From: Anaerolineae bacterium
GTDB taxonomy: Bacteria > Chloroflexota > Anaerolineae > 4572-78 > J111
DNA: 33,861 nucleotides
Direction: 5' to 3'
NCBI GenBank assembly: GCA_016931895.1
Contig: JAFGDY010000016.1
Location: 1-33,861, forward strand
Shown here: positions 1,607 to 29,846 of the stretch, in pieces
Numbering within the stretch: position 1 is the stretch's first letter
Layout: each line of letters opens with the position of its first letter
Program-made: the position numbers and the translations under genes
The notes under the pieces: model-generated
Told to the model about the DNA's origin: nothing
Seen by the model: the letters and a program-made list of their open reading frames with translations, nothing else
Databases searched by the model: none

Positions 1607-3064
1607 CTACATTTCTTTAACGGTAATATCAATAATTTTATCGCCCGGCGGGGCAGCCGGGTTGGCTTGGGGGTCGCGGGGGGTGATGTTTTCGGCCACA
1701 TCCTGCCCCTCAATCACCCGGCCCAAAATGGTAAAGCCATCGTTCAAATTGGGCGCGGCATCGTAGGTAATAAAAAATTGGCTGCCGTTGGTGTCGGGGC
1801 CGTTATTGGCCAGGGCCACCATCCCTGCCCCGTCAAAACTACGTTCGGCGGTAACTTCGTCGCTACAGCGATAGCCGGGGAAACCCAGCCCCAGGCCGGT
1901 GGGGTCGCCCCCCTGGGCCACAAAGCCGGGCAAAACCCGGTGAAAGGTAACGCCTTTATACCAACCCTGATTGGCCAAAAAAACAAAACTGTTGACATTT
2001 ATGGGCGCGGTATCCGCAAAAAGTTCCACCACAATATCGCCTTTCTCGGTTTTTATGGTGGCCGTATACTCTTTTTCCGGGTCAATAACCTGTTCCGGCT
2101 GCCGGTACCACTGCCACTTATCCTGCGCCTTGAGTTGATTGATTTTGCTAAAAAGACTCAAGCCCGTAAAGGGGGGGATTTGAAATTGGCTTAAATCGCT
2201 CAGGGGAATATAACGTTGGTTGGCAAAAAAAGTGGGCGTGCCGGGCAAGCCCGCCCCAACTGCGGCCTCGTAGTCGGCCATTACTTTTTCGGCGTAAGTT
2301 TCATTTTCCAGGTCGCCCTTGAACTGATCAAGGTTTTCCACGCCAACCTCTTTGGCGTAGCCAACCAGCGTGTCAATGATATTGTCTTTGGGCAGGCGGC
2401 TCCATTCACTTTGCCGTTCGTACAAAATATCGTGCATTTCCCAAAATTTATCCTGGGCGCCAGCTGCTTCGGCTGCTTCGGCTGTTATTTGGGCTTTATC
2501 GTGAATGCTAATCAAGGGAAAATGGCGATAAACGATGCGCGCGTCGTTACCCAGGCTTGTTTTGACTCCCTCCAACACGGGAGAGATGCTGGCGCAAGCC
2601 GGTCACTGGAAATCGCCATATTCAATAATGGTCACCGGCGCATTGGCCGGGCCTTTCACCCAATCCGCAGCGGTTACGGCGGCAATCGCGTCGGTGGGGG
2701 GAGATTCATCTATATAGGCGCTGAGGGCCGTAATGACGCCTGTCAGTTGGTCGCTCTGGGGGTCTACGGCCTGGCAGCCAGGCGCCTGGCCCGCGGCAGA
2801 TATAACCGGCGTTTCTGGCTCCGCAGCGGCTTCCGGTTCGCCGGCCGGCGGCGCTTCGGCGGCAGCTTCGGTTTCCTTTTCCGGCGTTGCCGGTGGTTCT
2901 GTCGCAGTGGTGGCCGGGGCGTTGGCTGCTTCTGTGGGGGCAGGCGCGGTTGGCGTTTCGGGTGTAACGGCAGCGCCCCCGCAAGCCGCCAGGTTTAAGC
3001 CAACCAAAAGCAGGCCGGCCGGCCACAGGGCCAGAACAGGACGTAATAAAAATTGTTTGGACAT
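1607..3064 (-). CDS. Lipoprotein: DsbA-like thioredoxin domain (UPAC, likely selenocysteine) fused to cyclophilin
   Basis: One reading frame of 485 residues plus stop, interrupted only by TGA at 2605-2603. Met1 follows GAGGAGG. Residues 1-28 are a lipoprotein signal peptide ending LAAC (Cys28). A Pro/Ala/Thr/Glu-rich linker leads to a DsbA-like domain with EYGDFQ, then UGA at residue 154, then PAC: the position of the first Cys of CPxC. The rest of the fold follows (YRHFPL, EAAEAAG, and the cis-Pro GTPTFF). The C-terminal domain is a cyclophilin with FHRVLPGFVAQGGDPTG, NGSQFFITY and LNDGFTILGRV. Expected role: thiol redox and prolyl isomerase activity on the outer face of the membrane. I infer Sec insertion because the break is one codon, both sides are intact, and a hairpin follows. 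A nonsense mutation of Cys or a sequencing error is the alternative. No sel genes are in the window. Confidence 0.8.
2554..2600 (-). promoter_or_regulatory. Candidate bacterial SECIS hairpin after the UGA
   Basis: Counting mRNA bases after the UGA, bases 3-8 (GGCUUG) pair perfectly with 44-49 (CAAGCC), and bases 20-24 (CUCCC) pair with 33-37 (GGGAG). The apical loop at 25-32 is GUGUUGGA. Bacterial SECIS elements lie directly 3' of the UGA, with an apical loop roughly 16-37 bases downstream and a G among its first two bases; both hold here. The large asymmetric internal loop (11 against 6 bases) is less typical. Folding was done by eye. Confidence 0.5.
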
Positions 3065-3239
3065 AGTTGCCTCCTCGAACAAATTTTGCAAAGTGATACT
3101 TTACCACAAATCTTTGATTTGTCGAGGGCAGGGAGTCTGTCCGACATTTTAGGAGGACCGGGGGGTGTGGGGGGCGTCCCCCCAATTCCCCCCTGTGCTT
3201 TCCAAAAAATTTTGGACGCGCTCAGGGCAGGGGGAGGCA

Positions 3240-3752: not shown

Positions 3753-3812
3753 GCCTTGTTGGCCGGCTCCAATTCTACACCCCAATGTAAACATGCGTTC
3801 TATGCCGATTAA

Positions 3813-3821
3813 TGGTATACT
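3813..3821 (+). promoter_or_regulatory. Extended -10 promoter for the R-M operon
   Basis: TGGTATACT is an extended -10 (TGn plus TATACT at 3816-3821). No good -35 is visible at the right distance. Transcription would start near 3828, just upstream of the SD (GGGAGAG) and the ATG at 3847, which supports that start over the upstream ATG at 3793. Confidence 0.5.
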
Positions 3822-3846
3822 ATCGGAAAGCATGGGAGAGTTTACA

Positions 3847-4968
3847 ATGGGGACCTCTGTAAATAAAACTGATAAGACAAGTTTTAACATCAATAGGCTG
3901 CCACCAGACTTACAACGTCATCTGGCAAATGTTTATCAAAGCGAACAGATTGACGACGCATTAGCCGTAGATCACGTTTATCAAGGCGACGTGCGAGAAC
4001 TTCTGCCTAAAATTCAGCCAAACAGCATTGCCCTGAGCATCTGGTCACCCCCTTATTTTGTTGGCAAAGAATACGAATCGGATTTATCATTTAAAGATTG
4101 GCAAAGTCTACTGGCTTATGTCATCAATCTCCATTTTCCCATCATTAAACCAGGCGGATTTCTGGTTATCAATATTGCCGACATTTTAGTTTTTAAAGAC
4201 CCCTCGATACCAAAAATCCAAGCTGAAGTGGTTAGCAGCAGGCGTTCAACGGTGACACGAGAGGATGTGCTCCAGGCTATGGCTGCACACCCTGATTATA
4301 ACCGTTACCAAATTGCCAAACTATTAGGCTGTAGTGAGCAAACTGTTGACCGCCGGCTCAACGGCAACAACATCCGGGGCGGCAAATATGAAACACAAAC
4401 CAGGATAAAAATTGTGGGTGGTCTTATTGAAGAATGGGGGCTTAAGGCGGGTTTCTATATGTATGATAGACGCGCCTGGGTAAAAGACGCCGCCTGGGAA
4501 AATTCGCGCTGGCACAGTTTATCTTACAAATCAGTGGATGAGTTTGAGTATTTGTACGTGTTCTGGAAGCCCGGCGTGACCAAAGTTGATAGAACCAGAT
4601 TAACCCCCAAGGAGTGGCGAGACTGGGGTTCGCGCGGGGTCTGGCATATTCCATCGGTGCGGGCAAATGATAACCATGAAGCAAAGTTCCCTCTGGAATT
4701 GCCCCGCCGCTTCATTCAACTATTGACCGAAACGCACGATATTGTGCTTGATTGTTTTATGGGCAGCGGCACAACCGCCATCGCCGCAATTCAGCAAAAC
4801 CGGCGATTTATTGGCATAGAATTAATTGAAAAATACGTAAACTTAGCCCAAACAAACATTCAAAAAGCAACGGCTCAACAACAATTAGACTTGCGGCCTG
4901 ATAAAAGTGATAATGGTGAAACATACTGCTTGATCCAAAACAACTCACAAATGACCTTGCCCGACTAG
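3847..4968 (+). CDS. DNA methyltransferase (N4-cytosine/N6-adenine type) of a type II R-M system
   Basis: A 373-residue beta-class DNA methyltransferase: catalytic motif IV SPPY at residues 67-70 comes first and the AdoMet-binding motif DCFMGSGTT at about 302-310 lies near the C-terminus, followed by RRFIGIE. SPPY is typical of N4-cytosine enzymes, and the SfiI-like neighbour also favours cytosine-N4. Between the two motifs (about 128-195) is an insert with a helix-turn-helix look (residues 141-171, including YNRYQIAKLLGCSEQTVDRRL), likely part of target recognition. The ATG at 3847 follows GGGAGAG; an in-frame ATG at 3793 would begin upstream of the predicted promoter. Base composition here is more AT-rich than in the flanking genes, consistent with horizontal transfer. 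Confidence 0.88.
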   Translation: MGTSVNKTDKTSFNINRLPPDLQRHLANVYQSEQIDDALAVDHVYQGDVRELLPKIQPNSIALSIWSPPYFVGKEYESDLSFKDWQSLLAYVINLHFPIIKPGGFLVINIADILVFKDPSIPKIQAEVVSSRRSTVTREDVLQAMAAHPDYNRYQIAKLLGCSEQTVDRRLNGNNIRGGKYETQTRIKIVGGLIEEWGLKAGFYMYDRRAWVKDAAWENSRWHSLSYKSVDEFEYLYVFWKPGVTKVDRTRLTPKEWRDWGSRGVWHIPSVRANDNHEAKFPLELPRRFIQLLTETHDIVLDCFMGSGTTAIAAIQQNRRFIGIELIEKYVNLAQTNIQKATAQQQLDLRPDKSDNGETYCLIQNNSQMTLPD

Positions 4969-5641
4969 AAGAAATAGAAAAAGCATCGCTCCGGCTGGTG
5001 ACGCAAGCCATTTACGACTATCGGGATACCGCTATCGAAATCTTTCATGCGGAAAGTGATTTAGTGGCGGATATAGGTGAAGACATCACCCGCGAGGCTT
5101 TGGATAGAATGGGCATGGCCAAGATTGACCAACGGCTATTCGGAAAAATTGATTATAAACGCGCCAGATATTTGTTTCATCCAGAGTATGCTATCCGCCA
5201 GGCACTATTTGTCGACTCTAAAGCTGAAAAAATAGACGGCCAGGGCACAGCAACTTTACAAACTTCTCAATTCTCTATGATTGTGCGCCAATTTAGAGCC
5301 AAACAAAACGTTGAAGTTGAGGGAACTTTGCCAAAAATTTTGACCATCCGCAACATAAGTTATATTACCACGACCATCTTTGTTAAATATAACTACGAGG
5401 AGACAGATGGTTATCACAAAGAATTAAAATCCATCACCCTCGCCGCTTTGCCAAATGGCTTGCTTCAAGAAAAGTATAACCCATCTTGCGATAACACAAT
5501 ATATGGAAAGTGGGCAGAAATGCGCCCTCAAGAGGAGAACCATTTCGAGTACGCCTAGCGTTTGACTGGTTAGCAGTCAAAGCCGGTTGGCGCGTGCAAA
5601 AAATCCCTCTGCCTCCCCATAATTTCGTGTGGAGCGACTAA
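4926..5641 (+). pseudogene. SfiI-like type II restriction endonuclease, frameshifted near the C-terminus
   Basis: Coding sequence for an SfiI-family enzyme. The catalytic pattern IDYK...VDSK has 21 residues between the two Asp, matching what I recall for SfiI (Asp79, Asp100, Lys102). The only in-frame start listed by normal rules is GTG 4998, but natural-looking sequence (LLDPKQLTNDLARLEEIEKA) continues upstream inside the methyltransferase gene to about 4926, where CTG follows GGTGA. That start puts the first Asp at residue 76. The frame ends at TAG 5556-5558, yet the family-like C-terminus (GRNAPSRGEPFRVRL, then WRVQKIPLP) continues in the -1 frame to TAA 5639-5641. Removing one AT from the AATATATGG at about 5498-5506 would join them. 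It could be a pseudogene, phase variation or a sequencing error. Confidence 0.7.
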
Positions 5642-17716: not shown

Positions 17717-19171
17717 TTGGTCCGTGAAGCGCACACTGCCGGCTGCCCACCTGACCAGTTAGAAAATTTCCTACGGGCCGGCGTTGTTTTACAGCCCAAA
17801 CAACTGCTGGCCAGCGCAGCAGCCAGGGAGTTTGATGCCCCCGGCGCGCCTACAGAGTTAGGCTACGGCGGAGCCAGGGGCGGCGGCAAAAGTTATTGGA
17901 TGCTGGCCCAGATAGGGGTTGACGACTGCCAGCGATACGACGGCCTGAAAGCCCTGGTGCTGCGCAAGATAGGTAAAGCGGTAAGAGAAGCGTTTGAGGA
18001 CATGCGCCCCCGGTTGTTTGCCAGAGTAGCGCATGAATACGTTAGCAATACGTTACGCTTCCCTAACGGGTCCAGAATTGTTCTGGGACATTTCAAAGAT
18101 GAAAAAGACATTGATTCGTATCTGGGATTGGAATATGACGTAATCGGCGTAGAGGAAGCCACCGCGCTGACCTGGCGTAAATTTGAGGCGATCCAGAGCG
18201 TAAACCGGACCAGCAAACCGGGCTGGCGGCCCAGGATTTACACGACTACCAACCCGGGCGGAGTTGGACACGCCTGGTATAAAAACAGGTTTGTTTCACC
18301 GGCCAGGACGAAGAGAAGCGCCGAGACACGATTTATCCAGGCGACGGTTGACGATAACCGGTTTGTGAACCCGGAATATCGGCGCAAACTGGACCAACTG
18401 ACGGGTTGGTTATTGAGAGCCTGGCGCTACGGCGATTGGGATATTGCCGCCGGACAGTTCTTTACCACTTTCAGGCACGATACGCACGTGCGCAGGCCGC
18501 CGTTTACGCGGATACCGGATGGCTGGCGGGTGTGGTGCAGTATGGATTACGGCTACGTTCACCCCACGGTAGTGCATCTGTGGGCCGAGGATGACGACGG
18601 CCATTTGTACACGGTAGACGAGCACGCCGGGCAACGGATGCAGGTGAGCCAGCACGCCGGGGCTATCAAGATAATGCTGGACCGGTGGGGCGCGAGTTTG
18701 GAACGGCTATACACGTTTGTGGCCGGGGCTGACGTGTTTGCCCAGAAAGATGACGGGCCAACAGTGGCCAAGAAGTACAAGGCCCTGGGCATTACGTTGA
18801 GGCCAGCCAATATGGACCGGGTGAACGGCTGGGCGGAAATACTGGCCCGATTAGGGGACGTAGACCAGGGTATACCACCCCGGTGGACGATTTTTGAAAC
18901 GTGCCCGAGATTGATTGAGACGCTCCCGATTTTGGAGCACAACCCGCATAAACCGGAGGACGTGCTAAAGGTGGATATTGACGACGACGGCATTGGCGGG
19001 GATGACGCGGGCGATTGCGCCAGATATGGCGTAATGGCGGCGCACCGAAAGGCGATGCGCAGCGGGAAGGTGGATTGGTACGGCAAAACGCCGCCAACGA
19101 CCGAGCCGGAACGCCCGGCCCGAAGCGACGAGGAAATCAAGCGGCTGTTAGAGGAACATGGCAAAAGTTAA
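17717..19171 (+). CDS. Terminase large subunit (packaging ATPase-nuclease)
   Basis: A 484-residue motor protein. The Walker A-type motif GGARGGGKS is at 51-59, Walker B DVIGVEEAT at about 141-149, and the coupling motif TTTNPGG at 176-182. The C-terminal RNase H-like nuclease starts with SMDYGY (Asp277) and continues with AGADVF (Asp339) and a late acidic cluster (DDDGIGGDDAGD). It cuts and pumps phage DNA into proheads through the portal. TTG 17717 is the first usual start; the frame is open 6 codons further to an ATT that overlaps the small-subunit stop, and the extra residues (IDNLEV) look natural, so a rare ATT start is possible. Confidence 0.92.
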   Translation: MVREAHTAGCPPDQLENFLRAGVVLQPKQLLASAAAREFDAPGAPTELGYGGARGGGKSYWMLAQIGVDDCQRYDGLKALVLRKIGKAVREAFEDMRPRLFARVAHEYVSNTLRFPNGSRIVLGHFKDEKDIDSYLGLEYDVIGVEEATALTWRKFEAIQSVNRTSKPGWRPRIYTTTNPGGVGHAWYKNRFVSPARTKRSAETRFIQATVDDNRFVNPEYRRKLDQLTGWLLRAWRYGDWDIAAGQFFTTFRHDTHVRRPPFTRIPDGWRVWCSMDYGYVHPTVVHLWAEDDDGHLYTVDEHAGQRMQVSQHAGAIKIMLDRWGASLERLYTFVAGADVFAQKDDGPTVAKKYKALGITLRPANMDRVNGWAEILARLGDVDQGIPPRWTIFETCPRLIETLPILEHNPHKPEDVLKVDIDDDGIGGDDAGDCARYGVMAAHRKAMRSGKVDWYGKTPPTTEPERPARSDEEIKRLLEEHGKS

Positions 19172-20468
19172 TAGCATTTTTGAAGTAGACGAATTTAAGC
19201 CATTTAAAGCCCGTTGGGACGAGCGGCTAAAGGAATTGAGCCGGCGCAAGCGGTATTATGACGGCACAATTTATAGAAGCGTGCGCGACCAGGTGGGCTG
19301 GCTATGGCCCAGGCTCTACAAGGGCATTAAGCCGCTGTTTTTACCGTTGGCGCGGGCGGTTGACGTGGACGCAGGGATCATTCCCGGTGAATGGGCGCTG
19401 GCCGAGGACGCGCCCGGCGCGTGGCAAGAGGCCATTGACCAGGTATTTGATTGGTCGGATTGGGATAGAGACGGCGTGTTATACGTGCATTTTGGGGCGC
19501 AATACGGGCTGAGCGGCTTGAAAATATCGGATTTGCGCCAGAGCCGGCGGGTAGTAATAAAGCCTATTTCGCCGACAACGTTTCTGCTGATTGAGACGGG
19601 CGATTACGACGACCGGCCGACGATGGCCATTATTGTGGAAAAACGCAACGACCGGGGCGGAAAAGAGTATGAATACGCCGAGGTGGTGACAGCGGAGCAG
19701 ATACGCACGTTTAAGGACGGACAGCCGTTGGGATTTGACGGGCGCGAGCCGGAATATATTAACGAATTAAAGTTTGTGCCGGTGGTAGAGATTCGGCACA
19801 TAGAGACCGGCGAGCTAATGGGCGAGGCAACCTACCAAAAGGCCATCCCGATGTTGGACGAAGTAAACCAGTTGGCCAGCTACCTGGCGGACGTAATCGG
19901 CAAACACGCCGAACCGCAATGGGTAGTGATGGGGGCCGAGGCCGGAGACCTGGTTAAGAGCGGCGATAATGTATGGTTTGTGCCGGACGGGGCCAAAGTG
20001 GAAGCGTTAGTGCCGGAGGTTGATTTGCCCGGCATTTTGGAGTTTATCCGGGAGATACGCGACCAGGTGCACGGCAGTTTGCCCGAATTGGCTTTTGATG
20101 AACTGCGCAAAAAAGACCAGATTGCCACCGCTACCCTAGAATTGCAGTTGATGGAACTGGTACTAAAGATCAAACGGTGTCGCCCCAATTATGACCATGG
20201 GCTGGCTGACGCATTGCGAATGGCGGGGCTGGCCGGGAAAAGCATGGGAATTGGAGAGGTGGCGGCCCTGGATGACGAAGGGCTGGCCTTTGATAGCAAG
20301 CGGGCCGTGCTGCCCATGGATCCAATCACCGAGATGAGCATTGAAATGCAACGGCTTAACCTGGAGCAAATGCAGGCGCTGGCCGGGGTGGAACCGGGGC
20401 CGGGAGACGAGGGCGGCGACAATACGGACATAACGGCCGAACAGGACGGCGGCGGGCCGAATGGCTGA
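19158..20468 (+). CDS. Portal protein
   Basis: A 436-residue protein directly after terminase, overlapping it by 14 bases. It has the portal pattern of SPP1 gp6-like proteins: an N-terminal part with KRYYDGTIYR, a middle domain with YQKAIPMLDEVNQLASYLAD and PQWVVMG, a stem and wing region with RDQVHGSLPELAFDELRKKD, and a Gln/Glu-rich, disordered C-terminus (PGPGDEGGDNTD). The dodecameric portal forms the DNA channel at one vertex of the head. The family call is by position and pattern rather than a single signature motif. Confidence 0.83.
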   Translation: MAKVNSIFEVDEFKPFKARWDERLKELSRRKRYYDGTIYRSVRDQVGWLWPRLYKGIKPLFLPLARAVDVDAGIIPGEWALAEDAPGAWQEAIDQVFDWSDWDRDGVLYVHFGAQYGLSGLKISDLRQSRRVVIKPISPTTFLLIETGDYDDRPTMAIIVEKRNDRGGKEYEYAEVVTAEQIRTFKDGQPLGFDGREPEYINELKFVPVVEIRHIETGELMGEATYQKAIPMLDEVNQLASYLADVIGKHAEPQWVVMGAEAGDLVKSGDNVWFVPDGAKVEALVPEVDLPGILEFIREIRDQVHGSLPELAFDELRKKDQIATATLELQLMELVLKIKRCRPNYDHGLADALRMAGLAGKSMGIGEVAALDDEGLAFDSKRAVLPMDPITEMSIEMQRLNLEQMQALAGVEPGPGDEGGDNTDITAEQDGGGPNG

Positions 20469-21384
20469 CGGCAAGATCATCCAGGCGCAGCGGCGGGTGA
20501 TCCGGCTGGAGGATGAGACGGCCAAACTGGTGATTGAGGCTTACGAACGCGCCCGCCGGGAGATGACGGGAATTTTGCTGGAGCGGTTCCAGCAGCTTGG
20601 CGACAACCCGAATACAGAGGCTATCCGCGAATTGGCCAGGGACGCGGGCCTACTGCGGGAGATTGAGCAGCAATTAGTTGAGCTGACCGGCCAGCACGCA
20701 AATATTATGCGGGCCGGATTGAGCGAAAGCCAGCAGTTGGGCTTGCAGATTGCCGAGCGGGAATTGGAACGCCTGGCGACGCGGTTAAAGATCAACGTGG
20801 CGCCGTTTACGGGGATTGACCGGCGGTTGCCGATTCTATTAGATGCGATTATGCGCCAGGTGGAGGGGATCAGCGAGCAGTACCGGCGCACGTTGACCAG
20901 CGAATTATTGACCAGCCTGGCCCGCGGCGATAGCTTTAGAACGATGGTGCAACGGCTATTAGCCGCTGAACCAACCCCGGACGGGGTGAGTCTGGCGCGG
21001 CAAGGAAAAAACGCGGCAGAATTGTTGGCCAGAAAAACGGTAATAGAGGCCAATAACGCCTCACGGCAATCTGTGTATGAAGAGGCGCGGCAGAATATAG
21101 ACGGCTTAAAAAAACAACTGGTGGCAGTAATTCAAGAGCGGACCACCGAAACGTGTTTGAAGGCGCACGGGCAGATCAGGGAATTGGAAGAGCCTTATGT
21201 CTTGACCGGCAAGCCGCGATTCGCCAAAAAGATTATGTTCCCGCCGTTTCATTGGCGGTGCCGGAGTAGCAGCGTGGCTTATCACCCGAGTTTTGAGGAA
21301 GGCTCGAAGATGACCACCGCGGCAATGACAGAAGCGGCTAAAGCAGAACTCAAACGGCGAGACGCCGAGAAGAGTAAAAAATAA
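20461..21384 (+). CDS. Minor head protein (Mu gpF / SPP1 gp7-like)
   Basis: A 307-residue protein overlapping the portal gene by 8 bases. The long helical N-terminal part leads to the conserved head-morphogenesis C-terminus: KTVIEANNASRQSVYEEARQ, ETCLKAHGQI, then PPFHWRCRSSSVAYHP with the His/Cys/Arg pattern seen in Mu gpF and SPP1 gp7. In those phages the protein sits inside the head at the portal and helps DNA entry. It ends with a Lys/Glu-rich tail. The paired Cys residues may bind metal. Confidence 0.82.
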   Translation: MADGKIIQAQRRVIRLEDETAKLVIEAYERARREMTGILLERFQQLGDNPNTEAIRELARDAGLLREIEQQLVELTGQHANIMRAGLSESQQLGLQIAERELERLATRLKINVAPFTGIDRRLPILLDAIMRQVEGISEQYRRTLTSELLTSLARGDSFRTMVQRLLAAEPTPDGVSLARQGKNAAELLARKTVIEANNASRQSVYEEARQNIDGLKKQLVAVIQERTTETCLKAHGQIRELEEPYVLTGKPRFAKKIMFPPFHWRCRSSSVAYHPSFEEGSKMTTAAMTEAAKAELKRRDAEKSKK

Positions 21385-21393
21385 CAAGCGGGG

Positions 21394-21420
21394 CGTTGCC
21401 CGTAAAAAACGAAGAGGAGC
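21394..21420 (+). repeat. 27-base leader repeat, copy 1 (before scaffold)
   Basis: A 27-base block beginning CGTTGCCCGTAAAAAACG and ending at the ribosome site GAGGAGC is repeated at 22015-22041 with one mismatch (A to T). Upstream GGGC plus GCCC make a 4-bp hairpin with a short loop. It places the same leader ahead of the two most expressed assembly genes. Confidence 0.75.
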
Positions 21421-21425
21421 AAATT

Positions 21426-21992
21426 ATGTTCAGACCCTACATTTTATTTGATGCAGACGGCGGCGGCGGTAACAGCGGAACCCCGCCCTCTACGCCGCCA
21501 GCGGAGCCACCGGCGGATCCGCCAGCCCCGGAAGGCGATGGCGTGCCACGCTCGTGGGACGAGGTTTTTCAACATCAGAGATTCAAGGAATTGAATTCCC
21601 GGGCCAAAAAGGCGGAGGCCGAGTTACAGCAGCTTCAGGAGGCGGAAAAAAAGCGAAGCGACAAGGAAGCCGCCGAACAGGGGAAATGGCAGCAATTGGC
21701 CGAGCAGCGAGAAATCGAGTTAAAGACAGAAAGACTGAAGCGGCAACAATTAGAGATAGCCAGTAAAAAGGGCCTGCCGCCCGACCTGGCTCCCCGGTTA
21801 CGAGGCGATACGGTAGAGGAAATGGAAGCCGACGCCGATATCTTGCTCACTTTTATGAAACCCGGCGAAGGGCCGGGCGTGCCGCCCGCAGGCAGGGGCA
21901 GCGGCAGCAAGCCGTTGGATTTAAGCAAAATGACGCCCAAAGAAATCAGAGAAAAGAAGGAACAACTTTGGGCGCAGGAAATAGGCCAGTAA
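21426..21992 (+). CDS. Scaffolding protein
   Basis: A 188-residue protein from ATG 21426 (GAGGAG upstream). The N-terminus is Gly/Pro-rich (TPPSTPPAEPPADPPAPEGD), the middle a highly charged coiled coil (RAKKAEAELQQLQEAEKKRS, LAEQREIELKTERLKRQQLE), and the C-terminus helical with KMTPKEIREKKEQLWA. This order, just upstream of the coat gene, is that of DUF4355-like scaffolds that guide coat assembly and leave the head before packaging. No protease domain is present. Confidence 0.8.
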   Translation: MFRPYILFDADGGGGNSGTPPSTPPAEPPADPPAPEGDGVPRSWDEVFQHQRFKELNSRAKKAEAELQQLQEAEKKRSDKEAAEQGKWQQLAEQREIELKTERLKRQQLEIASKKGLPPDLAPRLRGDTVEEMEADADILLTFMKPGEGPGVPPAGRGSGSKPLDLSKMTPKEIREKKEQLWAQEIGQ

Positions 21993-22014
21993 CCTGGCCG
22001 ACGCTCCCCGGGGC

Positions 22015-22041
22015 CGTTGCCCGTAAAAAACGAAGTGGAGC
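22015..22041 (+). repeat. 27-base leader repeat, copy 2 (before coat)
   Basis: Matches 21394-21420 at 26 of 27 bases. It lies 38 bases before the coat ATG; a fresh AAGGAG ribosome site follows (22067-22072). The upstream GGGC/GCCC mini-hairpin is also kept, so structure as well as sequence is conserved between the two copies. Confidence 0.75.
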
Positions 22042-22078
22042 CATTCTAACCAAATTCTTATAAATAAGGAGATAAACG

Positions 22079-22978
22079 ATGGCAAACATCACTTCAACCG
22101 AAACGGCCAACGCGATTGCGACGATTGTGGCGGCGGAGGCCCTGGGATATTTAAAGGCCAATACTGTGCTGGCCAGATTGGTGGCACGGGATTGGGACAA
22201 CGAGGTGGCCGTTTACGGTCAAACCGTAGATATTAATATTCGCGGCTCTTTAAGCGCGAATGACAAGACCGAAAACAGCACCATTACGCTGCAAACGCCC
22301 AGCACCATCAAAAAGAGCGTAACCTTGAACAAACACAAGGAAGTGTCTTTTTTGCTGGAAGATTTTGCGCGGGTGCTTTCGCGGCCCAACCTGCTGGCCG
22401 GGTATATGGAAGACGGGATCAAGGTGATCGGGGAGCAGATTGACAGCGACCTGTCCGCCCTGTATTCCGGTTTCAGCCAAACCGTTGACGCGACCACGGG
22501 CCTGGGGGAGGATGACTTCCGCAACTCCCGCCGGTTGCTGAACTCGGCCAAAGCGCCTTTGGGCGACCGCTACGCGGTGTTGCACGAAGACGCCGAATAT
22601 GAGATGCTCTCCATTGAGCGGATCGTGAACCGCGATTACGCCGAGTCCCTGGGAAGCAGCGTGGCAGCCGATTCCTACAGCGGGCGGTTTGCCGGGTTCC
22701 AGATGTTCCTAGATCAAAAGATCGCGGTAGCCTCGAGCGAGTGTAAGAACCTGTTCTTTCATAAAAACGCGATGGTGCTGGCTACCCGCCCCATGCCTCA
22801 AGACGGCAACGGGGCCGGGGTAGTGCAAACCGCGATGGCCGAAGACGGCGTGGGCTTGCGAGTGACCATGAGTTACGACCACGATTACCTGGGGTGGAAG
22901 GTGACAGTGGACGTGCTTTATGGCGTGGCCGAGTTGCGCGACGATCACGGTGTGGTTGTTTCTACGACCGAAATCTAA
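22079..22978 (+). CDS. Major capsid protein (P22 gp5-like)
   Basis: A 299-residue protein. The N-terminal helix TETANAIATIVAAEALGYLK, LVARDWDNEVAVYGQTVDIN, the central region with KHKEVSFLLEDFARVLSRPN, LNSAKAPLGDRYAVLHEDAE, and the C-terminal strand block (MSYDHDYLGWKVTVDVLYGV) fit the P22 coat family, which uses the HK97 fold to build the icosahedral shell. It follows the scaffold gene with a strong ribosome site, as expected for the most abundant product. The family length is about 300-430, so this is a compact member. Confidence 0.85.
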   Translation: MANITSTETANAIATIVAAEALGYLKANTVLARLVARDWDNEVAVYGQTVDINIRGSLSANDKTENSTITLQTPSTIKKSVTLNKHKEVSFLLEDFARVLSRPNLLAGYMEDGIKVIGEQIDSDLSALYSGFSQTVDATTGLGEDDFRNSRRLLNSAKAPLGDRYAVLHEDAEYEMLSIERIVNRDYAESLGSSVAADSYSGRFAGFQMFLDQKIAVASSECKNLFFHKNAMVLATRPMPQDGNGAGVVQTAMAEDGVGLRVTMSYDHDYLGWKVTVDVLYGVAELRDDHGVVVSTTEI

Positions 22979-23008
22979 ATCAACCGCAGACTTTTTGAGT
23001 AAATATTT

Positions 23009-23037
23009 GGCACAGAGGCTCTGAGCGCCTCTGTGCC
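23009..23037 (+). repeat. 11-bp hairpin between coat and next gene
   Basis: GGCACAGAGGC (23009-23019) pairs perfectly with GCCTCTGTGCC (23027-23037), loop of 7. There is no U-run (CAGAAAAAAGG follows), so it is not a standard terminator; it may lower downstream expression or stabilise the coat message against 3' decay. Confidence 0.7.
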
Positions 23038-23060
23038 CAGAAAAAAGGAGATTTTTTACC

Positions 23061-23525
23061 ATGAAACGCAAGATTTTTAACGTTGTTGGCCTAATAGTGC
23101 TGATTATGCTTCTGGCAGCGATCAGCCTGGTAGCTATTCAGAACCCCGCAGCCCAAGCGGCGCCGCCGGCAGCGCCAACGCCGGTTTCTAATATCCTGGA
23201 TACCGAGGAAGCCAAACTCTTTAACTTTCAGACAGCGACCGCTGTTGCGGCAGACACCTACACTTCATGGCGGGACGTATCGGCCTTCGATTCTATTGAT
23301 GTTCAGCACGTGATCGACCACGGCACCGTGAACACAACCACCCTGACCGTGCAATACTCTATTGACGGCACCAATGCGGTGAACGGGCTGGCCTTAGTGA
23401 GCAATAGCGCGGCGGACGGGTCAGACATTACGCGCGTGCCGGTGTTTGGTAAATATATGCGGATATATCAGAATCTGACCAGCACCGACACTATCACCAT
23501 TACCCTGATAGCCGTGGGGCGGTAG
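23061..23525 (+). CDS. Signal-peptide protein inside the head operon
   Basis: A 154-residue protein. Residues 1-33 are a strong secretion signal (KRKIFNVVGLIVLIMLLAAI, then AAQAA cut site), followed by a short Pro/Ala linker and a beta-rich domain (TYTSWRDVSAFDSIDVQHVI, TTTLTVQYSIDGTNAV, YMRIYQNLTSTDTITITL). Such beta domains occur as capsid decorations or cell-surface binding units. A signal peptide on a gene between coat and connector is hard to explain for a virion part, since it would leave the cytoplasm; an N-terminal membrane tether is the alternative. The ribosome site AAAAAGGAG is strong. Confidence 0.7.
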   Translation: MKRKIFNVVGLIVLIMLLAAISLVAIQNPAAQAAPPAAPTPVSNILDTEEAKLFNFQTATAVAADTYTSWRDVSAFDSIDVQHVIDHGTVNTTTLTVQYSIDGTNAVNGLALVSNSAADGSDITRVPVFGKYMRIYQNLTSTDTITITLIAVGR

Positions 23526-23534
23526 GAGGGGATT

Positions 23535-23780
23535 ATGGCCAGCGACAAAAAGTATTACCTGGTAAACCCGTCCGGCACTATCCATGTTGTGACGCGGGAG
23601 CATGCGGAAACGCGCTTGAAGCAAACAGGCTACCGGTTGGCGACCAAAACAGAGATTGCGGCCTACGAAAAGACCAAAATCCAATCCCTGAAAACTCGGC
23701 TGGCCAAACCCTGGAAGCCTGAACTTGAGCCGGAGACGGTGTTACCCGACGAAGGCGAGGGCGAAGGCGGCAAGGAGTAA
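23535..23780 (+). CDS. Small hypothetical head-region protein
   Basis: An 81-residue protein starting 9 bases after the previous stop. The first half (KKYYLVNPSGTIHVVTREHA, TRLKQTGYRLATKTEIAAYE) looks like a compact alpha/beta unit with a Lys/Arg-rich surface; the second half is a charged helix and an acidic tail (EGEGEGGKE). Small proteins of this kind lie between coat and connector in many siphoviruses. No family is assigned. Confidence 0.65.
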   Translation: MASDKKYYLVNPSGTIHVVTREHAETRLKQTGYRLATKTEIAAYEKTKIQSLKTRLAKPWKPELEPETVLPDEGEGEGGKE

Positions 23781-23786
23781 CCACAG

Positions 23787-24620
23787 ATGAGCGAGCGAAG
23801 CCGGATTTACAACGGAAGATTTTTGCACAACCTGGATAACTGGACAGCCAGCAACGCCAGCTATAGCGCCGGAGACGGCGATGACCATTACGGCGTGGCG
23901 GTGCTGGAAACCGGGGGCGGGTACGTGGAACAGGATTTTGTTGTAACCGGCTATCGCACGTTTACGCTGCACCTGAGCGTGAAAGCAGTGGGCAGCGACC
24001 TGAGCGGTAGCCAGGCCACAGCGACGATCACCGACGGCGACGGCAATACCGTAACCGCCGAGAATCTATCCGGCACGGCCGACACCTGGACCGAAAATGA
24101 GATCAGCGTGGGCCTGGCCGAAGGCACTACCTATACCCTGACCCTCACCAACGCCAGCGCCGCCGGTGACGTAAAAATTGATGACGTGTGGCTGTGGTTT
24201 GTGCCCCTTACCCGGGCGCAGATTGCGGCGGCAGTGGCTCGCAAGTTGGGGCGCGTGGCCACGGACCGGAGTTATAGCACCACCCTGAGCGGCACCCAAA
24301 CCGAAGGCGATTACACCGATGCAGTGGATGACGCGCTGCGGACCATGGGCGCGATTGATCCCAAGACCGGGTTGACGAATGTCCGCTGGGCGGACAGCGG
24401 CATGGTGAAGGCGATCATTGACGCCGCGTTGCAGGCTATGCTGGAGAAGGCGCAGATTGACTACGCGGTAGAGGTTGATTTTTCAATAGGTCCGCACTCA
24501 GAGCAATTGAGCCAGAAGCGTGCCGCATTGAAAGATTTAACCAGCGCCGAGGGCGGCGCAGGAAACCGGCAGGTGGTCAGCCGCCCGCTGCGACACGAGC
24601 GGGAGGATTATACCTGGTGA
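23787..24620 (+). CDS. Jelly-roll (CBM-like) domain fused to a head-tail connector
   Basis: A 277-residue protein with two parts. Residues 1-135 form a beta-sandwich of the carbohydrate-binding type (NGRFLHNLDNWTASNASYSA, GGGYVEQDFVV, TYTLTLTNASAAGDVKIDDV, WLWF). Residues 140-277 are helical and match the connector pattern of phage gp6-like proteins (LTRAQIAAAVARKLGRVATD, YTDAVDDALRTMGAIDPKTG, VDFSIGPHSEQLSQKRAALK). The connector part would join the portal to the tail. A sugar-binding-like domain at the neck is unusual: it may form neck whiskers or help cell contact. Confidence 0.7.
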   Translation: MSERSRIYNGRFLHNLDNWTASNASYSAGDGDDHYGVAVLETGGGYVEQDFVVTGYRTFTLHLSVKAVGSDLSGSQATATITDGDGNTVTAENLSGTADTWTENEISVGLAEGTTYTLTLTNASAAGDVKIDDVWLWFVPLTRAQIAAAVARKLGRVATDRSYSTTLSGTQTEGDYTDAVDDALRTMGAIDPKTGLTNVRWADSGMVKAIIDAALQAMLEKAQIDYAVEVDFSIGPHSEQLSQKRAALKDLTSAEGGAGNRQVVSRPLRHEREDYTW

Positions 24621-24985
24621 CTACGATTTATCAAGGCGATTCTTACGGGTACAACTTTTTGGCCACTAAAACGGCCAGCACGCAGCGCAATGCGACCGGC
24701 TCCGGGATGAGCAATCATTTGAGCGGGTTGGCGGCGCCGGGGCTGTATCCGGTTGACGCCGACATTGTATCGGACGCCGGGCTGGAAGGCGCAGCCAGGG
24801 AGTATAAACAGACGTTTGTGCGCAAGCAGAGCCATACCGACGACGGCCAGACGGTAGACCAGTTACCGGACATAAAAGAAGGTGACAATTATATTGTGGA
24901 TGGGATAACGTACCGGGTCCGGTCGGCGGCGGAGTGGGGTAATATGCTGCACCTGGTAATAGGCGAGCTGAAAGGGGCGGCCTGA
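24617..24985 (+). CDS. Head closure or head-tail joining protein
   Basis: A 122-residue protein with a GTG start overlapping the previous stop. The sequence is beta-rich at its C-terminus (EGDNYIVDGITYRVRSAAEW, MLHLVIGEL), which fits the small-barrel head-completion proteins (SPP1 gp16/Phage_H_T_join type) normally found at this position between connector and the gp10-like gene. The position supports the call more than any single motif. Confidence 0.6.
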   Translation: MTTIYQGDSYGYNFLATKTASTQRNATGSGMSNHLSGLAAPGLYPVDADIVSDAGLEGAAREYKQTFVRKQSHTDDGQTVDQLPDIKEGDNYIVDGITYRVRSAAEWGNMLHLVIGELKGAA

Positions 24986-25356
24986 TGGCTAAAACCGGCG
25001 CGGCCAAGGTTGAAATTGACGGATTAAAAGAAACGCAAGATAAGTTGGTGCAGGTAGCCCAGCTTATTACCGAGGGCGGCAAGGGACTATTAAGTCGCAG
25101 TATTTTGCGGCTGCACCGGTACATGACCGGAATCGTGCAGGTAGACACCGGACGGCTCAAAAACAGCTTGCATCCGTTTGTAGAGGACAGGGAAGCCAAT
25201 ATCCGTACCAATGTAGTGTATGCCCTTCCGCTTGAGTACATGGCCGGGGGAAAGTATAGCTATATTCGCGAAACGGCCCGCGACGAGGGGGCGAATGTAG
25301 CGGCGCAAATAGTGAGCGGGCTGCAAGGAGAGATCAGTGACGCTTTCGGTGCCTAG
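24985..25356 (+). CDS. HK97 gp10-like tail-completion protein
   Basis: A 123-residue protein whose ATG shares bases with the previous TGA (ATGATGG context). It has the HK97_gp10 pattern: an N-terminal helix (KVEIDGLKETQDKLVQVAQL), the strand-turn TGIVQVDTGRLKNSLHPFVE, and RTNVVYALPLEYMAGGKYSY. In known phages this protein acts at the head-tail interface. Its end overlaps the next gene by 20 bases. Confidence 0.8.
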   Translation: MAKTGAAKVEIDGLKETQDKLVQVAQLITEGGKGLLSRSILRLHRYMTGIVQVDTGRLKNSLHPFVEDREANIRTNVVYALPLEYMAGGKYSYIRETARDEGANVAAQIVSGLQGEISDAFGA

Positions 25357-25771
25357 CCGACAGACAGTAAGGGAACGATTGGCCACGCTGATTGACGCGC
25401 AAATTGAGGCTTACGTGGCGGTGTTTGACCACGTGCCCAGGGATTTGCAAGGAAAATCGCCGTGTTGCACGGTGTCCTCTCTTGGTTTCAGGCCGGGGCA
25501 GAACCCATACCTATACACCTACCGATTTGCCATTGGCAATTGGGTGAGACGAGACTTATCAACCGGAGTGGCGGCCAGCGAAGATACGCTGGACACGTTG
25601 ATGCAGGCCATTGCCCAATTTGCGCTAAATAACGCCAACGATTCAGTTCTGCATATCTGCAAAATTCCGGTAGATCAGGACAGCGAAACATCTTACCCGG
25701 TGGTGGACGGGATCCCCTACCGGGCGGAGTTTATTACCGTGGAAGTGAGGCCACAGGTAGGAGCATCATGA
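25337..25771 (+). CDS. Probable tail terminator protein
   Basis: A 144-residue protein starting at GTG 25337 inside the previous gene. Its alpha/beta order (RQTVRERLATLIDAQIEAYV helix, then strands YLYTYRFAIGNW, a helix at AASEDTLDTLMQAIAQFALN, and final strands PYRAEFITVEVR) fits tail terminators that cap the tail tube, and it occupies the position expected for one, between gp10-like and tail tube genes. No diagnostic motif is seen. Confidence 0.65.
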   Translation: MTLSVPSRQTVRERLATLIDAQIEAYVAVFDHVPRDLQGKSPCCTVSSLGFRPGQNPYLYTYRFAIGNWVRRDLSTGVAASEDTLDTLMQAIAQFALNNANDSVLHICKIPVDQDSETSYPVVDGIPYRAEFITVEVRPQVGAS

Positions 25772-25947
25772 GCAAAAAAGAAATAAAATTAAAATTTGTG
25801 GGCGACGAGGGAGATTACGTGCAAGGCTACCCCCGGCGCGACATTACGGTGGATAACGCGGCTGAGGCCGAGCGGCTGGTGGAAACGAATTGCTACGAGC
25901 TAGAGCCGAACCGCCCACCGCAGCAAAAGGAGAAAAATAATGGGTGA
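25768..25947 (+). CDS. Small hypothetical tail-region protein
   Basis: A 59-residue protein with ATGA overlap to the upstream gene and an 8-base overlap with the tail tube gene. It is highly charged: MSKKEIKLKFVGDEGDYVQG, PRRDITVDNAAEAERLVETN, then a Pro/Gln/Lys tail carrying the next gene's ribosome site (AAGGAG). The first 45 residues resemble the short strand-helix proteins that often precede tail tube genes. It was called because both overlaps and coding composition support it, despite its size. Confidence 0.7.
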   Translation: MSKKEIKLKFVGDEGDYVQGYPRRDITVDNAAEAERLVETNCYELEPNRPPQQKEKNNG

Positions 25948-26899
25948 CATTGCGCTCAGAAAATTACAGGTGGGCCTTGAATCGGGTTGGGGCACGGCAG
26001 TGGCGGCCACCCGAATCTGGTACGGGCAAGGGAATATCCAGCCGGCGGGCGTTGAGCCGACCTTAAAAAACGAGGACCGGGGAAGTTATGACGCTTATCA
26101 CCGGGCCAGCGTGCCGGTTTTGGATTACGACTGGATGTTTAAGGGCGGGTTGGACCTGGACGACCTGGTGGAGCAGTTGAAGCTGGCCGTGCACAACGAT
26201 CCGACGCCAACCGGGAGCGGCCCTTACGTGTGGACGTTTACGCCCGACAATACCCTGGCCAGCGCCACGGTGGAGTGGGACGCCAGCGGCAAGGTGTGGG
26301 AAGCGCCGGGGGCGATGTGCGATTCGTTGAAATTGAGCGGAAACGCCAACGGGGACGACGTGACAGTGGAGTTATCCGGGCCGTGCAAGCAGAGAGACGA
26401 TTCTAGCTTGACCGGCCTGAGCGATCACGCGACCAACGTGGTGCAGGGCTGGGAGTTGGATTTTTACGTGGACGCCCTGGGCGGGACGCCGGGCACCACG
26501 CAAAAGGATTTGACTTTAATTAGTTGGGATATTGAGGTTAAAAACAATCTCCAGCGCAAGCGGCGGGGGACCAACGACCGCTACATTGCGGGGCTGGCCC
26601 GGGGGCGGCGCACGCTGACCGGCTCGATTTTGGGCGAGTTGAACGCTACCACGCTGAGCGAAATCACAAACCAGGAAGCGGTAACGGAGCGACTGCTCCG
26701 GCTGGCGCTGGGCAATAACGTGATCATCAGCGGCGCGGACAAGTATTATTTGTATATTGATATTCCGTGCGTGCTGATGACAAACGTGATCGAGGAAGAC
26801 GCAGAGATGAGCGTAGTAAGGTTTGATATTGCCGCAATTTACGACTCGACCAACGGGTTTATGTTTGAGTTTACGATGCAAAATAACAGGGCAAGCTAA
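25940..26899 (+). CDS. Major tail tube protein
   Basis: A 319-residue protein. It begins GDIALRKLQVGLESGWGTAV, a typical tail-tube opening (RKIQ-GxESxxGTAV), and contains KGGLDLDDLVEQL, VTVELSG, LISWDIEVKNNLQRKRR and a long C-terminal beta section with MSVVRFDIAAIYDSTNGFMF. Siphovirus tube proteins stack as hexameric rings around the tape measure. It ends with a base shared with the chaperone gene start (TAATG). Confidence 0.83.
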   Translation: MGDIALRKLQVGLESGWGTAVAATRIWYGQGNIQPAGVEPTLKNEDRGSYDAYHRASVPVLDYDWMFKGGLDLDDLVEQLKLAVHNDPTPTGSGPYVWTFTPDNTLASATVEWDASGKVWEAPGAMCDSLKLSGNANGDDVTVELSGPCKQRDDSSLTGLSDHATNVVQGWELDFYVDALGGTPGTTQKDLTLISWDIEVKNNLQRKRRGTNDRYIAGLARGRRTLTGSILGELNATTLSEITNQEAVTERLLRLALGNNVIISGADKYYLYIDIPCVLMTNVIEEDAEMSVVRFDIAAIYDSTNGFMFEFTMQNNRAS

Positions 26900-27189
26900 T
26901 GTGGGAAAAGCGGATAGTTCCAGTTAAATTTAACGAGTTAGAGGTTGAATTATGGATCAACCCACCGCGGGGCGATTATGAGGATTGCCCATCAGATACT
27001 AAATTGGTGGAACTTTGTTTAGTCTCCTGGAACTTGGGAGGGAAAGCCTATCAAGATTATACCTTCCCTAAAAGCCCAAACAGCGAAGCGATTAGAAAAT
27101 TGCCGTTTGACATAGTTACCCTTTTGGCTTTTGAGATTGCAAAAGCCATAAAAAGCAATATCCCAAAGCTGAAAGGCACCGCATCATAG
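26899..27189 (+). CDS. Tail assembly chaperone, short form (gpG-like)
   Basis: A 96-residue protein starting at the last base of the tail tube stop. It has an N-terminal beta part (KRIVPVKFNELEVELWINPP) and a helical C-terminus (IRKLPFDIVTLLAFEIAKAI). It sits between tail tube and tape measure, where siphoviruses encode two overlapping chaperones. Near its end it carries the slippery heptamer C CCA AAG (27162-27168); most ribosomes would stop at TAG 27187-27189 and give this short form. Confidence 0.8.
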   Translation: MWEKRIVPVKFNELEVELWINPPRGDYEDCPSDTKLVELCLVSWNLGGKAYQDYTFPKSPNSEAIRKLPFDIVTLLAFEIAKAIKSNIPKLKGTAS

Positions 27190-27368
27190 CGTATTATGAG
27201 GCGGTGCGAAAAAGAGAAAAACCAACCTTTACGTCTATAGACCACCAAACTATGATTTTTTGCGAGATTTTTGGCTGGACATACGAACAATACCGCAATA
27301 CACCGGCGGACGTGATTAGTCGCTGGATGGCATATAAGTCTATAGAAGCAACTGTAAAAAATGCCTAA
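26899..27368 (+). CDS. Tail assembly chaperone, -1 frameshift fusion (gpGT-like)
   Basis: Slippage of one base backward at C CCA AAG (27162-27168) moves the ribosome into a frame that stays open to TAA 27366-27368 and adds about 65 residues: a helical extension (YYEAVRKREKPTFTSIDHQT, then FGWTYEQYRNTPADVISRWM). This extension has no start of its own and ends just inside the tape measure gene, as with lambda gpGT, where the fusion recruits the tape measure protein. The heptamer fits X XXY YYZ exactly in the zero frame. The fusion has about 156 residues. Confidence 0.8.
27162..27168 (+). promoter_or_regulatory. Programmed -1 frameshift site
   Basis: C CCA AAG in the zero frame re-pairs as CCC AAA after a one-base backward slip. 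It is the only perfect X XXY YYZ heptamer between the start of the open -1 frame and the zero-frame stop. I did not identify a stimulatory stem-loop with confidence. Confidence 0.75.
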
Positions 27369-29058
27369 CGAAACTATCCTCAGAATTGTAATAGACGCCA
27401 AAGACACCACCAAAAAAACCTTTGATGGATTAGGGAAATCCATGAGTAATCTGGATGGTGTGGCCAGTACCCTGGCGACTGGCGGCTTAACCCTTGTGAC
27501 CGGAGCGTTAGCCCTAATAGGCACTACTGCTACTATTGCCGCCAAAGAAACCTTGAGCTTTACGGACGATCTAAATGGCGTATTAAAGGACGTAGAGAGA
27601 CAAACCGGACATACGTCTGAGGAGATGGATGATTTTAAATCATCTTTGACCAATGTTTATACCGACGCAAGAGTGGTTAATGTTGCTTTAGAAGATTTGG
27701 CTGACGCGCAAATTATCGTCCAACGCACCACCGGAGAAACCGGGGCCGAATTAGAGAATTTAACAGCGCAAGCCGTGGCCATGGGGGACGTATTTGAAAT
27801 AGACGTGGCCGAATCAATGCGCACAGTAGATGCATTGCTAAAAAACAATATAGCCCAAAGCGGGCAAGAGGCGCTTGATATTATTACAGCGGGCTTGCAA
27901 AACAACCTCAATGTGGCCGATGATTTTCTTGATACATTGACAGAATACTCACAAGATTTTAACGAACTGGGTTTGACCGGAGAACAAGCCCTAAACCTGT
28001 TAAATAGCGGCTTAGAGGCGGGCATTTTTAATACCGACAAAATAGGAGACGCGACGCAGGAATTTTTAACCAGCCTAAAGGACACGGCCGTTGTTGATAA
28101 ACTGAGAGAGATCAACCCCGCCCTGGCCGACATAGCGGTTAGTTTTAATGACGGCAAAATTACCGGGGTAGAAGCGTTGCAGCAAATTCAAGCTGAAATA
28201 GGAAGCATGGATGACAGCTTGCTGCGGAACGAAGCGGGGCGGACGTTGTTTGTATCATTTTGGGACGACTTGGGGCAAGAGGCGCTATTGGCGCTCGATC
28301 CGATAAATAACAAATTAGGAGACATCAACGGCTCTACCGCACAGGCCACGCAAGAAAATATGAACTGGAAAGATGCCCTAACTCAGCTAGGAAGAGAATT
28401 TGTTGTAGCAATGGAACCTGCGGCCCAAGAAATATTACCCTTACTTTATGATGGTATAAAGTTGGCCGGTGGTTTTATGAGGGAGGCGCAACCAGTTTTT
28501 GCCCAATTTGGCGTGGATATGAGAGATACGATTGGCCCGGCTATGGCTGTAGTAAATGATTCTTTGGTCAGGATTGCGCAGGCATTAGGGATAGCAACCG
28601 AGGATACAACCGGCATGGATATTGCGATTGCGGCGCTCAAAGCTACCCTTGACCTAATCGTGGCCACCATTCAGCTTGTGGCTATTGGATTCCATAATAC
28701 GGCAGAAGCGGCGGAATATTTGCGCGAGCAATTGGACGCCATAGCAAATTTTGACTTTGGATCATTGTCATCTATACAACAGGCGGCTCAAGGATTGGCG
28801 AATTTGACTCCGGCCGGAATGGTATCTAACGCCGGTTTTGGTTTTTTGGGATTTGCTGACGGCGGCGTTGTGCCTGGCCCTATAGGATCGCCAATGATGG
28901 CCATGGTGCATGGAGGAGAAGTCATTTCCCCGCCAGGACAAAGCGGCGGGCCGATGTTCAACATCTCTATATTTGCCAACGATGAAGAGGGCGGGCGGCG
29001 AGCCGGGCGAGGGTTTGTGGACGAGCTGCGGAGCCGGGGCGTGATGGTGGCGGCGTGA
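27361..29058 (+). CDS. Tail tape measure protein
   Basis: A 565-residue protein: an N-terminal part ETILRIVIDAKDTTKKTFDG typical of tape measures, a hydrophobic segment (GLTLVTGALALIGTTATIAA), a long helical middle with LNLLNSGLEAGIFNTDKIGD and EFLTSLKDTA as in TP901-type tape measure proteins, and a C-terminus with Gly-rich GFADGGVVPGPIGSPMMAMV, HGGEVISPPGQ as in many such proteins. Length sets tail length; about 0.15 nm per residue suggests a short tail near 85 nm. The start overlaps the frameshift product's end. Confidence 0.88.
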   Translation: MPNETILRIVIDAKDTTKKTFDGLGKSMSNLDGVASTLATGGLTLVTGALALIGTTATIAAKETLSFTDDLNGVLKDVERQTGHTSEEMDDFKSSLTNVYTDARVVNVALEDLADAQIIVQRTTGETGAELENLTAQAVAMGDVFEIDVAESMRTVDALLKNNIAQSGQEALDIITAGLQNNLNVADDFLDTLTEYSQDFNELGLTGEQALNLLNSGLEAGIFNTDKIGDATQEFLTSLKDTAVVDKLREINPALADIAVSFNDGKITGVEALQQIQAEIGSMDDSLLRNEAGRTLFVSFWDDLGQEALLALDPINNKLGDINGSTAQATQENMNWKDALTQLGREFVVAMEPAAQEILPLLYDGIKLAGGFMREAQPVFAQFGVDMRDTIGPAMAVVNDSLVRIAQALGIATEDTTGMDIAIAALKATLDLIVATIQLVAIGFHNTAEAAEYLREQLDAIANFDFGSLSSIQQAAQGLANLTPAGMVSNAGFGFLGFADGGVVPGPIGSPMMAMVHGGEVISPPGQSGGPMFNISIFANDEEGGRRAGRGFVDELRSRGVMVAA

Positions 29059-29846
29059 AGATAAAGAGTTTTGACGGCCTGGCCCTGAGTCAATACGAGA
29101 TTGAAGACGATATCCCGTTAGATTTCAGAAGCAACCTGGTGAAACTGCCCCTGGCCGGGGCGTTTGACGCGGACGGAAGCGAGCAATACCGGGAACCGCT
29201 GGTTATTACCCGCTCGTTTGAGATTGTGGAGAGCGCCTACACAACGGTGGATGATACTCTGGACAGTTTGCGAGCAAAAGCCAATAAAGGACTGGGTTGG
29301 CTGATCATAGAAATGCGCGACGATGACGAGCGCGGCACCTGGGCCAAATTAAAGCGCGTGCAGGCGCCATATAAGCCGGATTATTTACAACACCTGCCGG
29401 TAAAGCTGACATTCGAGGTGAGCTGGCCATGGTTTGAAGACGCTGACGATATTGGATATTTAGACGACGGCGGCTTGCTAGATGACGGCGGTATATTTGA
29501 CGAGAATTACACCAGCCAGGTGGGGGCGGGGGATTTTTCTATAAATAACACCGGGGGGGACCGGATCACGCGGGGGTTGATTGTGGTGAAGGGCAGCAGC
29601 ACTGATCCGAAGGTAGAAAACACAACTACCGGGGAGTGGGTGCAGTACACGGGCACAATCGCGGCTGGGTCGTTTTTGCTGATAGACCTGGGCGCGCAGA
29701 CCGCGACTATTGACGGCGTGAACGTGTGGGAGTACCTCTCCATTGGGGATGAACAAATACGGATGTTTTCCTTAATCGTAGGCAATAACTCAATTAGTTT
29801 TACGGGCGGCGGTACGCTGGAAATTCATTGGGCGAGGGTATATTAA
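29055..29846 (+). CDS. Distal tail protein (Dit-like)
   Basis: A 263-residue protein with GTG start overlapping the tape measure stop. The N-terminal half follows the Dit pattern (DIPLDFRSNLVKLPLAGAFD, then ITRSFEIVES, KANKGLGWLIIEMRDDDERG) and the C-terminal half is a beta-sandwich (TRGLIVVKGSSTDPKVENTT, GTIAAGSFLLIDLGAQTATI, DGVNVWEY) as in the galectin-like domain of Dit proteins. It would form the hub ring at the tail tip. DDGGLLDDGG is an internal short repeat. Confidence 0.8.
   Translation: MKIKSFDGLALSQYEIEDDIPLDFRSNLVKLPLAGAFDADGSEQYREPLVITRSFEIVESAYTTVDDTLDSLRAKANKGLGWLIIEMRDDDERGTWAKLKRVQAPYKPDYLQHLPVKLTFEVSWPWFEDADDIGYLDDGGLLDDGGIFDENYTSQVGAGDFSINNTGGDRITRGLIVVKGSSTDPKVENTTTGEWVQYTGTIAAGSFLLIDLGAQTATIDGVNVWEYLSIGDEQIRMFSLIVGNNSISFTGGGTLEIHWARVY

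Follow-up and report, generated by a model that had tools for sequence, protein, structure and literature searches.

A DsbA-like lipoprotein fused to a cyclophilin in Anaerolineae: a probable selenoprotein with repeated exchange of selenocysteine and cysteine

Results

Gene layout

The window, i.e. the whole stretch of 33,861 nucleotides analysed here, carries on its minus strand a reading frame which runs from an ATG at 3064 to a TAG at 1607 and is interrupted only by the TGA at 2605-2603 (Table 1). A preliminary description of this DNA had reported two adjacent frames, exactly in phase and separated by this TGA only, and we read them in the same way. As an argument for a single gene, the adjacency is weaker than stated there. 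The window is GC-rich and contains 14 places at which a stop splits two in-phase frames, each of 100 codons or more (6 TAA, 5 TAG, 3 TGA), so that phase alone is no evidence. However, homology runs across the TGA, which makes a single gene more than a chance arrangement: 31 relatives align across the same domains as the whole gene. We conclude that 3064-1607 is one intact gene. Standard gene calling treats TGA as a stop and would break it into two, as had been anticipated; a mechanical list of open reading frames indeed has 1607-2578 as a separate frame with a GTG start.

Table 1. Features of the selenoprotein candidate gene and its surroundings
Feature	Position	Strand	Basis or remarks
Complete gene: lipoprotein, DsbA-like thioredoxin fold, cyclophilin at the C terminus	1607..3064	minus	485 aa, residue 154 = Sec (TGA read as Sec in the open frame; PF13462, PF01323, PF00160)
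Shine-Dalgarno AGGAGG, ATG 5 nt downstream	3070..3075	minus	read directly
Signal peptide, lipobox LAAC (Cys28)	2978..3064	minus	read directly
UGA codon, predicted selenocysteine 154	2603..2605	minus	orthologue codon column TGA/TGC/TGT/other sense
SECIS-like hairpin, stem UCUCUCC/GGAGGGA, 6-nt loop CGUGUU	2567..2586	minus	fold, compensatory pair changes, independent contrasts
DsbA-like thioredoxin domain, U154-P-A-C157, cis-Pro loop T276-P277	2204..2665	minus	PF13462, alignment, AlphaFold
Cyclophilin-type peptidyl-prolyl isomerase domain	1610..2068	minus	PF00160 1.9e-37, Foldseek

The encoded protein consists of a lipobox, a linker, a DsbA-like thioredoxin fold and a cyclophilin, in this order. 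Pfam recognises Thioredoxin_4 (PF13462, 6.8e-20, 72.3 bits, cut-off 23.2), DSBA (PF01323, 2.5e-12, 47.4 bits, cut-off 25.6) and cyclophilin (PF00160, 129.4 bits, cut-off 21.7). The UGA occupies the N-terminal redox position of the DsbA-like domain (FQ-U-PAC), where the preliminary description had placed it in lieu of the first redox cysteine. The sequence on both sides is as intact as claimed: a lipobox-like motif is shared by most orthologues, C157 and P277 are invariant in the alignment of relatives and the cyclophilin domain is recognised at the expected place. The alignment puts the catalytic Arg of this domain, R376, in the FHRV motif; we take it to be the equivalent of R55 of human CypA. 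Among the relatives, L044-L048 (family f13) retain the Sec site and have FHYV at this position of the cyclophilin core. Because FHYV replaces FHRV, their isomerase domain is, as judged from the motif, probably inactive.

Codon 154 in orthologues and selection across the UGA

Codon 154 was compared in 78 non-redundant orthologues of the fusion protein, all of which, where placed, belong to the class Anaerolineae. It is TGA in 30, TGC or TGT in 40 and another sense codon in 8; neither TAA nor TAG was found in any of the 78. Sampling of these orthologues is uneven, because Cys was part of one search pattern. In a sample of 150 genomes of the phylum, matches spanning both domains were confined to the class of the window. 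The TGA is present in 26 of 150 related genomes, the window's own included, and the others have Cys; one of the carriers is a second, independently assembled genome of the same genus. Eight orthologues (L056, L057, L061, L062 and L064 of family f29, L088, L093 and L096) have Ser, Thr, Asp or Ala at the redox position and thus probably possess a DsbA site devoid of its first redox residue.

Compared with the same-genus orthologue, dN/dS is about 0.18 for residues 107-153 preceding the UGA, 0.13 downstream of it and 0.07 for the cyclophilin, with dS close to saturation in the first two segments. The eight codons directly following the UGA differ from this orthologue by two synonymous changes and by nothing else. 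These comparisons indicate that both flanks of the UGA are under purifying selection and that coding continues through the TGA.

Two alternatives have to be weighed against this background. First, a nonsense mutation or a base error might have split a gene of the Cys type, leaving a pseudogene or an artefact. There is a single in-frame stop, and most homologues outside the class have Cys at this position. Yet the same TGA recurs in separately assembled genomes of many genera, in about 30 orthologues, while TAA and TAG never take its place; dN/dS is low on both flanks, and a hairpin is tied to the TGA (see below). The Cys-type relatives, checked for disabling mutations, are likewise intact single proteins free of decay. 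We consider a pseudogene or sequencing error very improbable. Second, the locus might give rise to two proteins, with the lipoprotein cut short at the UGA and a second product started at the internal GTG (2578), in line with the frame 1607-2578 mentioned above. This GTG is the only plausible internal start. The stretch from the UGA to the GTG would belong to neither product, yet it contains the eight conserved codons, among them that of the resolving Cys157, which is invariant; this disfavours two separate proteins. Moreover, the Cys orthologues are single proteins, and the second product would be devoid of a signal peptide. Two products from this locus are thus scarcely credible, and we continue with a single protein read through the UGA.

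Selenocysteine machinery and the use of UGA in the genome

The source genome (6.06 Mb, 320 contigs, 97% complete) has its named close relatives in the Chloroflexota, class Anaerolineae. Targeted searches for Sec machinery and further Sec genes found all four components that the preliminary description had proposed to look for: selA (489 bits, E 1.5e-146), a full-length selB in a 637-aa frame above the curated cut-off (331 bits with neighbours), a tRNA-Sec with UCA anticodon (67.2 bits) and selD (L017, 357 bits), which is itself of the Sec type with the motif CAGUASK. Among the 26 TGA genomes SelA was detected in 25, in G026 just as a partial gene at the edge of a contig; the one genome in which it was not detected, G023, has a completeness of 67%. 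Almost all members of the class have SelA (134 of the 150 related genomes), so this co-occurrence serves as a consistency check and discriminates little.

Other UGA/Cys pairs exist as well. Of 11 AhpC/TSA-type matches in the genome, 5 contain an in-frame TGA, and in all four sequences read the TGA stands for the redox Cys (TFVU, TPVU, TGGU and UGPC). These peroxiredoxin-type loci are L153, L154, L155 and L157; the contigs concerned are C77, C135, C212, C84 and C209 of the genome (G000), C209 holding the fifth TGA-bearing match. With at least four peroxiredoxin-type TGA genes and a Sec-containing selD, the genome is rich in Sec.

In-frame TGAs in several genes might also be taken to mean that UGA is reassigned throughout the lineage, to Cys or some other amino acid, or is generally read through, in place of SECIS-directed Sec insertion. 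However, the in-frame TGAs read so far fall on a redox Cys or, in SelD, on the customary Sec position, and the genome has the complete Sec system. TGA still terminates several ordinary genes of the window and the genome's own selB, so that there is no code change, as had been maintained, and we give this alternative practically no weight. The earlier proposal of a probable selenoprotein is thus supported by the machinery, the recurrent TGA and the Cys relatives; at the level of assembled sequences, none of the refuting conditions named with that proposal was borne out.

A SECIS-like hairpin downstream of the UGA

A bacterial SECIS element is a stem-loop which directly follows the UGA and has a small, G-containing apical loop (PMC1088965). 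The predicted fold 3' of the window's UGA (arms 2586-2580 and 2573-2567) fits this description; its loop contains G and starts 24 nt after the UGA. Half of the Sec orthologues (15/30) were assigned to this +24 place. The other 15 have a hairpin at +39 with a 3-nt loop (GGU, GUU, GGA or similar).

The median stem score is 19 in Sec genes versus 11.5 in Cys genes, and all five innermost pairs are formed in 27/30 Sec genes versus 4/40 Cys genes. For Sec/Cys contrasts that are independent in the phylogeny (13 in all), the hairpin went with Sec in 4.0, 5.6, 7.5 and 9.7 on average at thresholds of 11, 12, 13 and 14, respectively, and opposed it in none of the 13 at any of these thresholds. The direction is hence constant, while significance varies with the threshold (median sign-test p = 0.125, 0.031, 0.008 and 0.002). 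Pair 24/35 of the +24 stem occurs in all four Watson-Crick types (UA, CG, GC, AU). The partner changes alter the encoded amino acid (GAG Glu, GCG Ala, GTG Val, GGG Gly) and the four types are therefore hard to attribute to protein constraint.

The window hairpin taken by itself is weakly better than its synonymous recodings (p = 0.05 to 0.075), so the case for the hairpin rests on the family. Rfam gave no SECIS family match at the hairpin site. The overall minimum free energy calculated for the first 63 nt 3' of the UGA distinguishes Sec genes from Cys genes modestly (p = 0.005, kinship ignored); the specific stem score is sharper. In three Sec genes (L026, L027, L032) the stem is short or shifted. 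One Cys-type orthologue (L076:66-1352) has a near-perfect +24 hairpin, UUGCGCC-CGUGCU-GGCGCAG, which is possibly a fossil SECIS following a recent switch from Sec to Cys.

Exchange of Sec and Cys within the family

A maximum-likelihood tree of the orthologues was calculated with residue 154 excluded. Along this unrooted tree the Sec label changes 14 times, at least 13 of these on well-supported branches. Two pairs differ within a genus, G010 (Sec) versus G006 (Cys) and G134 (Sec) versus G058 (Cys); the G058 sequence is identical to a Promineifilum sp. record (L086). Given that the tree is unrooted, gains and losses of Sec are not separable in these counts. Repeated gain of Sec, and not loss alone, within one orthologous family, accompanied on each occasion by a newly formed SECIS hairpin, is conceivable, though we regard it as rather doubtful. 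On this reading, the two hairpin places (+24 with a 6-nt loop, +39 with a 3-nt loop) would mean that the recoding signal can be rebuilt elsewhere in the gene with the protein unchanged.

Discussion

Structure and proposed function

The AlphaFold model has a mean pLDDT of 82.8, with values mostly above 90 in the two domains and a disordered linker at the N terminus. Foldseek finds solved cyclophilins (best E 4.5e-13) and the bacterial DsbA 4pwo (5.5e-10). A Cys in the linker (Cys97 here) is nearly always accompanied by a second Cys in or near the cyclophilin, at either of two positions: Cys400 here, or some 157 residues downstream of position 154. Most lineages devoid of the linker Cys are also devoid of the cyclophilin-side Cys, and vice versa (L021-L103). 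This pairing points to a putative interdomain disulfide, as would fit an exported protein, and suggests that the bond has moved between alternative Cys positions.

Taken together, we are highly confident that the locus encodes one selenoprotein with a hairpin-directed Sec154, a predicted lipid-anchored enzyme of disulfide exchange and prolyl isomerisation. Gene unity, exchange of Sec and Cys, the machinery and the association with the hairpin are each supported by sequence comparison; we infer the incorporation of Sec at residue 154 from them. Membrane anchoring, foldase activity and redox direction are proposed by analogy with known proteins; the enzyme may oxidise, reduce or isomerise disulfides. 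In translation, SelB with Sec-tRNA(Sec) would bind the hairpin just 3' of the UGA, and selenocysteine would be placed at residue 154. The product would be exported, receive a lipid anchor at Cys28 and sit at the membrane's outer face, where exported proteins may undergo thiol-disulfide exchange at the U-P-A-C site of the DsbA-like domain. The cyclophilin joined to it would act as an isomerase on prolyl bonds, probably those of the same client proteins. A VKOR homologue, also encoded in the genome, is a candidate partner which could re-oxidise the DsbA-like site. A likely role is that of an extracytoplasmic foldase combining both activities.

Relation to known selenoproteins

DsbA-like and DsbG-like UxxC selenoproteins have been described before (PMC1088965, PMC1794560, PMC13188914). 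The protein shares with the DsbA-like UxxC selenoprotein (the Sargasso Sea family; 'form 1' of PMC13188914; PF01323) a Sec at the N-terminal CxxC position of a DsbA fold and a bacterial SECIS shortly 3' of the UGA; both the UxxC motif (U154-P-A-C157) and the cis-Pro (P277) are found. In contrast, a cyclophilin fusion is not mentioned in these papers (PMC1088965, PMC1794560, PMC13188914). The C-terminal domain has the conserved FHRV...F..Q core of single-domain bacterial cyclophilins (PpiA/PpiB, PF00160), but is here joined to a predicted exported seleno-thioredoxin domain.

The closest family is NCBIfam NF041057, the Rcas_1661 family thioredoxin-like (seleno)lipoprotein, which a review places under DsbG-like UxxC (PMC13188914). 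It likewise combines a lipoprotein signal with a DsbA/DsbG-like thioredoxin domain and a possible Sec in UxxC, and its model matches residues 19-285 here; against 32 members of the present family, the best E-value is 6.2e-37. However, the match scores 98.9 bits (90.1 in a six-frame search) against a curated cut-off of 190, so by the curated test the protein is not a member, and the NF041057 model of 247 positions is devoid of the cyclophilin domain. Judged from this likeness, the protein is probably kin to NF041057 and probably works like it.

In the literature searched, the main texts of mostly open-access papers, no cyclophilin-fused DsbA selenoprotein is described and little is found on selenoproteins of Anaerolineae. 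Within that literature, it is the cyclophilin fusion as a selenoprotein that is new; the DsbA/DsbG-like UxxC kind was already known. The bacterial selenoproteome would gain a two-domain membrane-anchored foldase, in which a putative seleno-disulfide oxidoreductase is linked to a putative prolyl isomerase. Compared with the preliminary description, the SECIS-like hairpin, the repeated switching between Sec and Cys and the relation to NF041057 have been added. The at least 13 switches, including those between same-genus pairs, make the family a natural experiment, suited to asking how and why one of the two residues replaces the other and by what steps a SECIS element arises or disappears within a coding sequence.

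Further genes of the window

A Type II restriction-modification pair is located at 3793-5558, an N6_N4 DNA methylase followed by an SfiI-like restriction enzyme (PF11487, 3.4e-35). The region at approximately 17717-33238 is a prophage, with matches to terminase large subunit, tail tube and minor tail protein.
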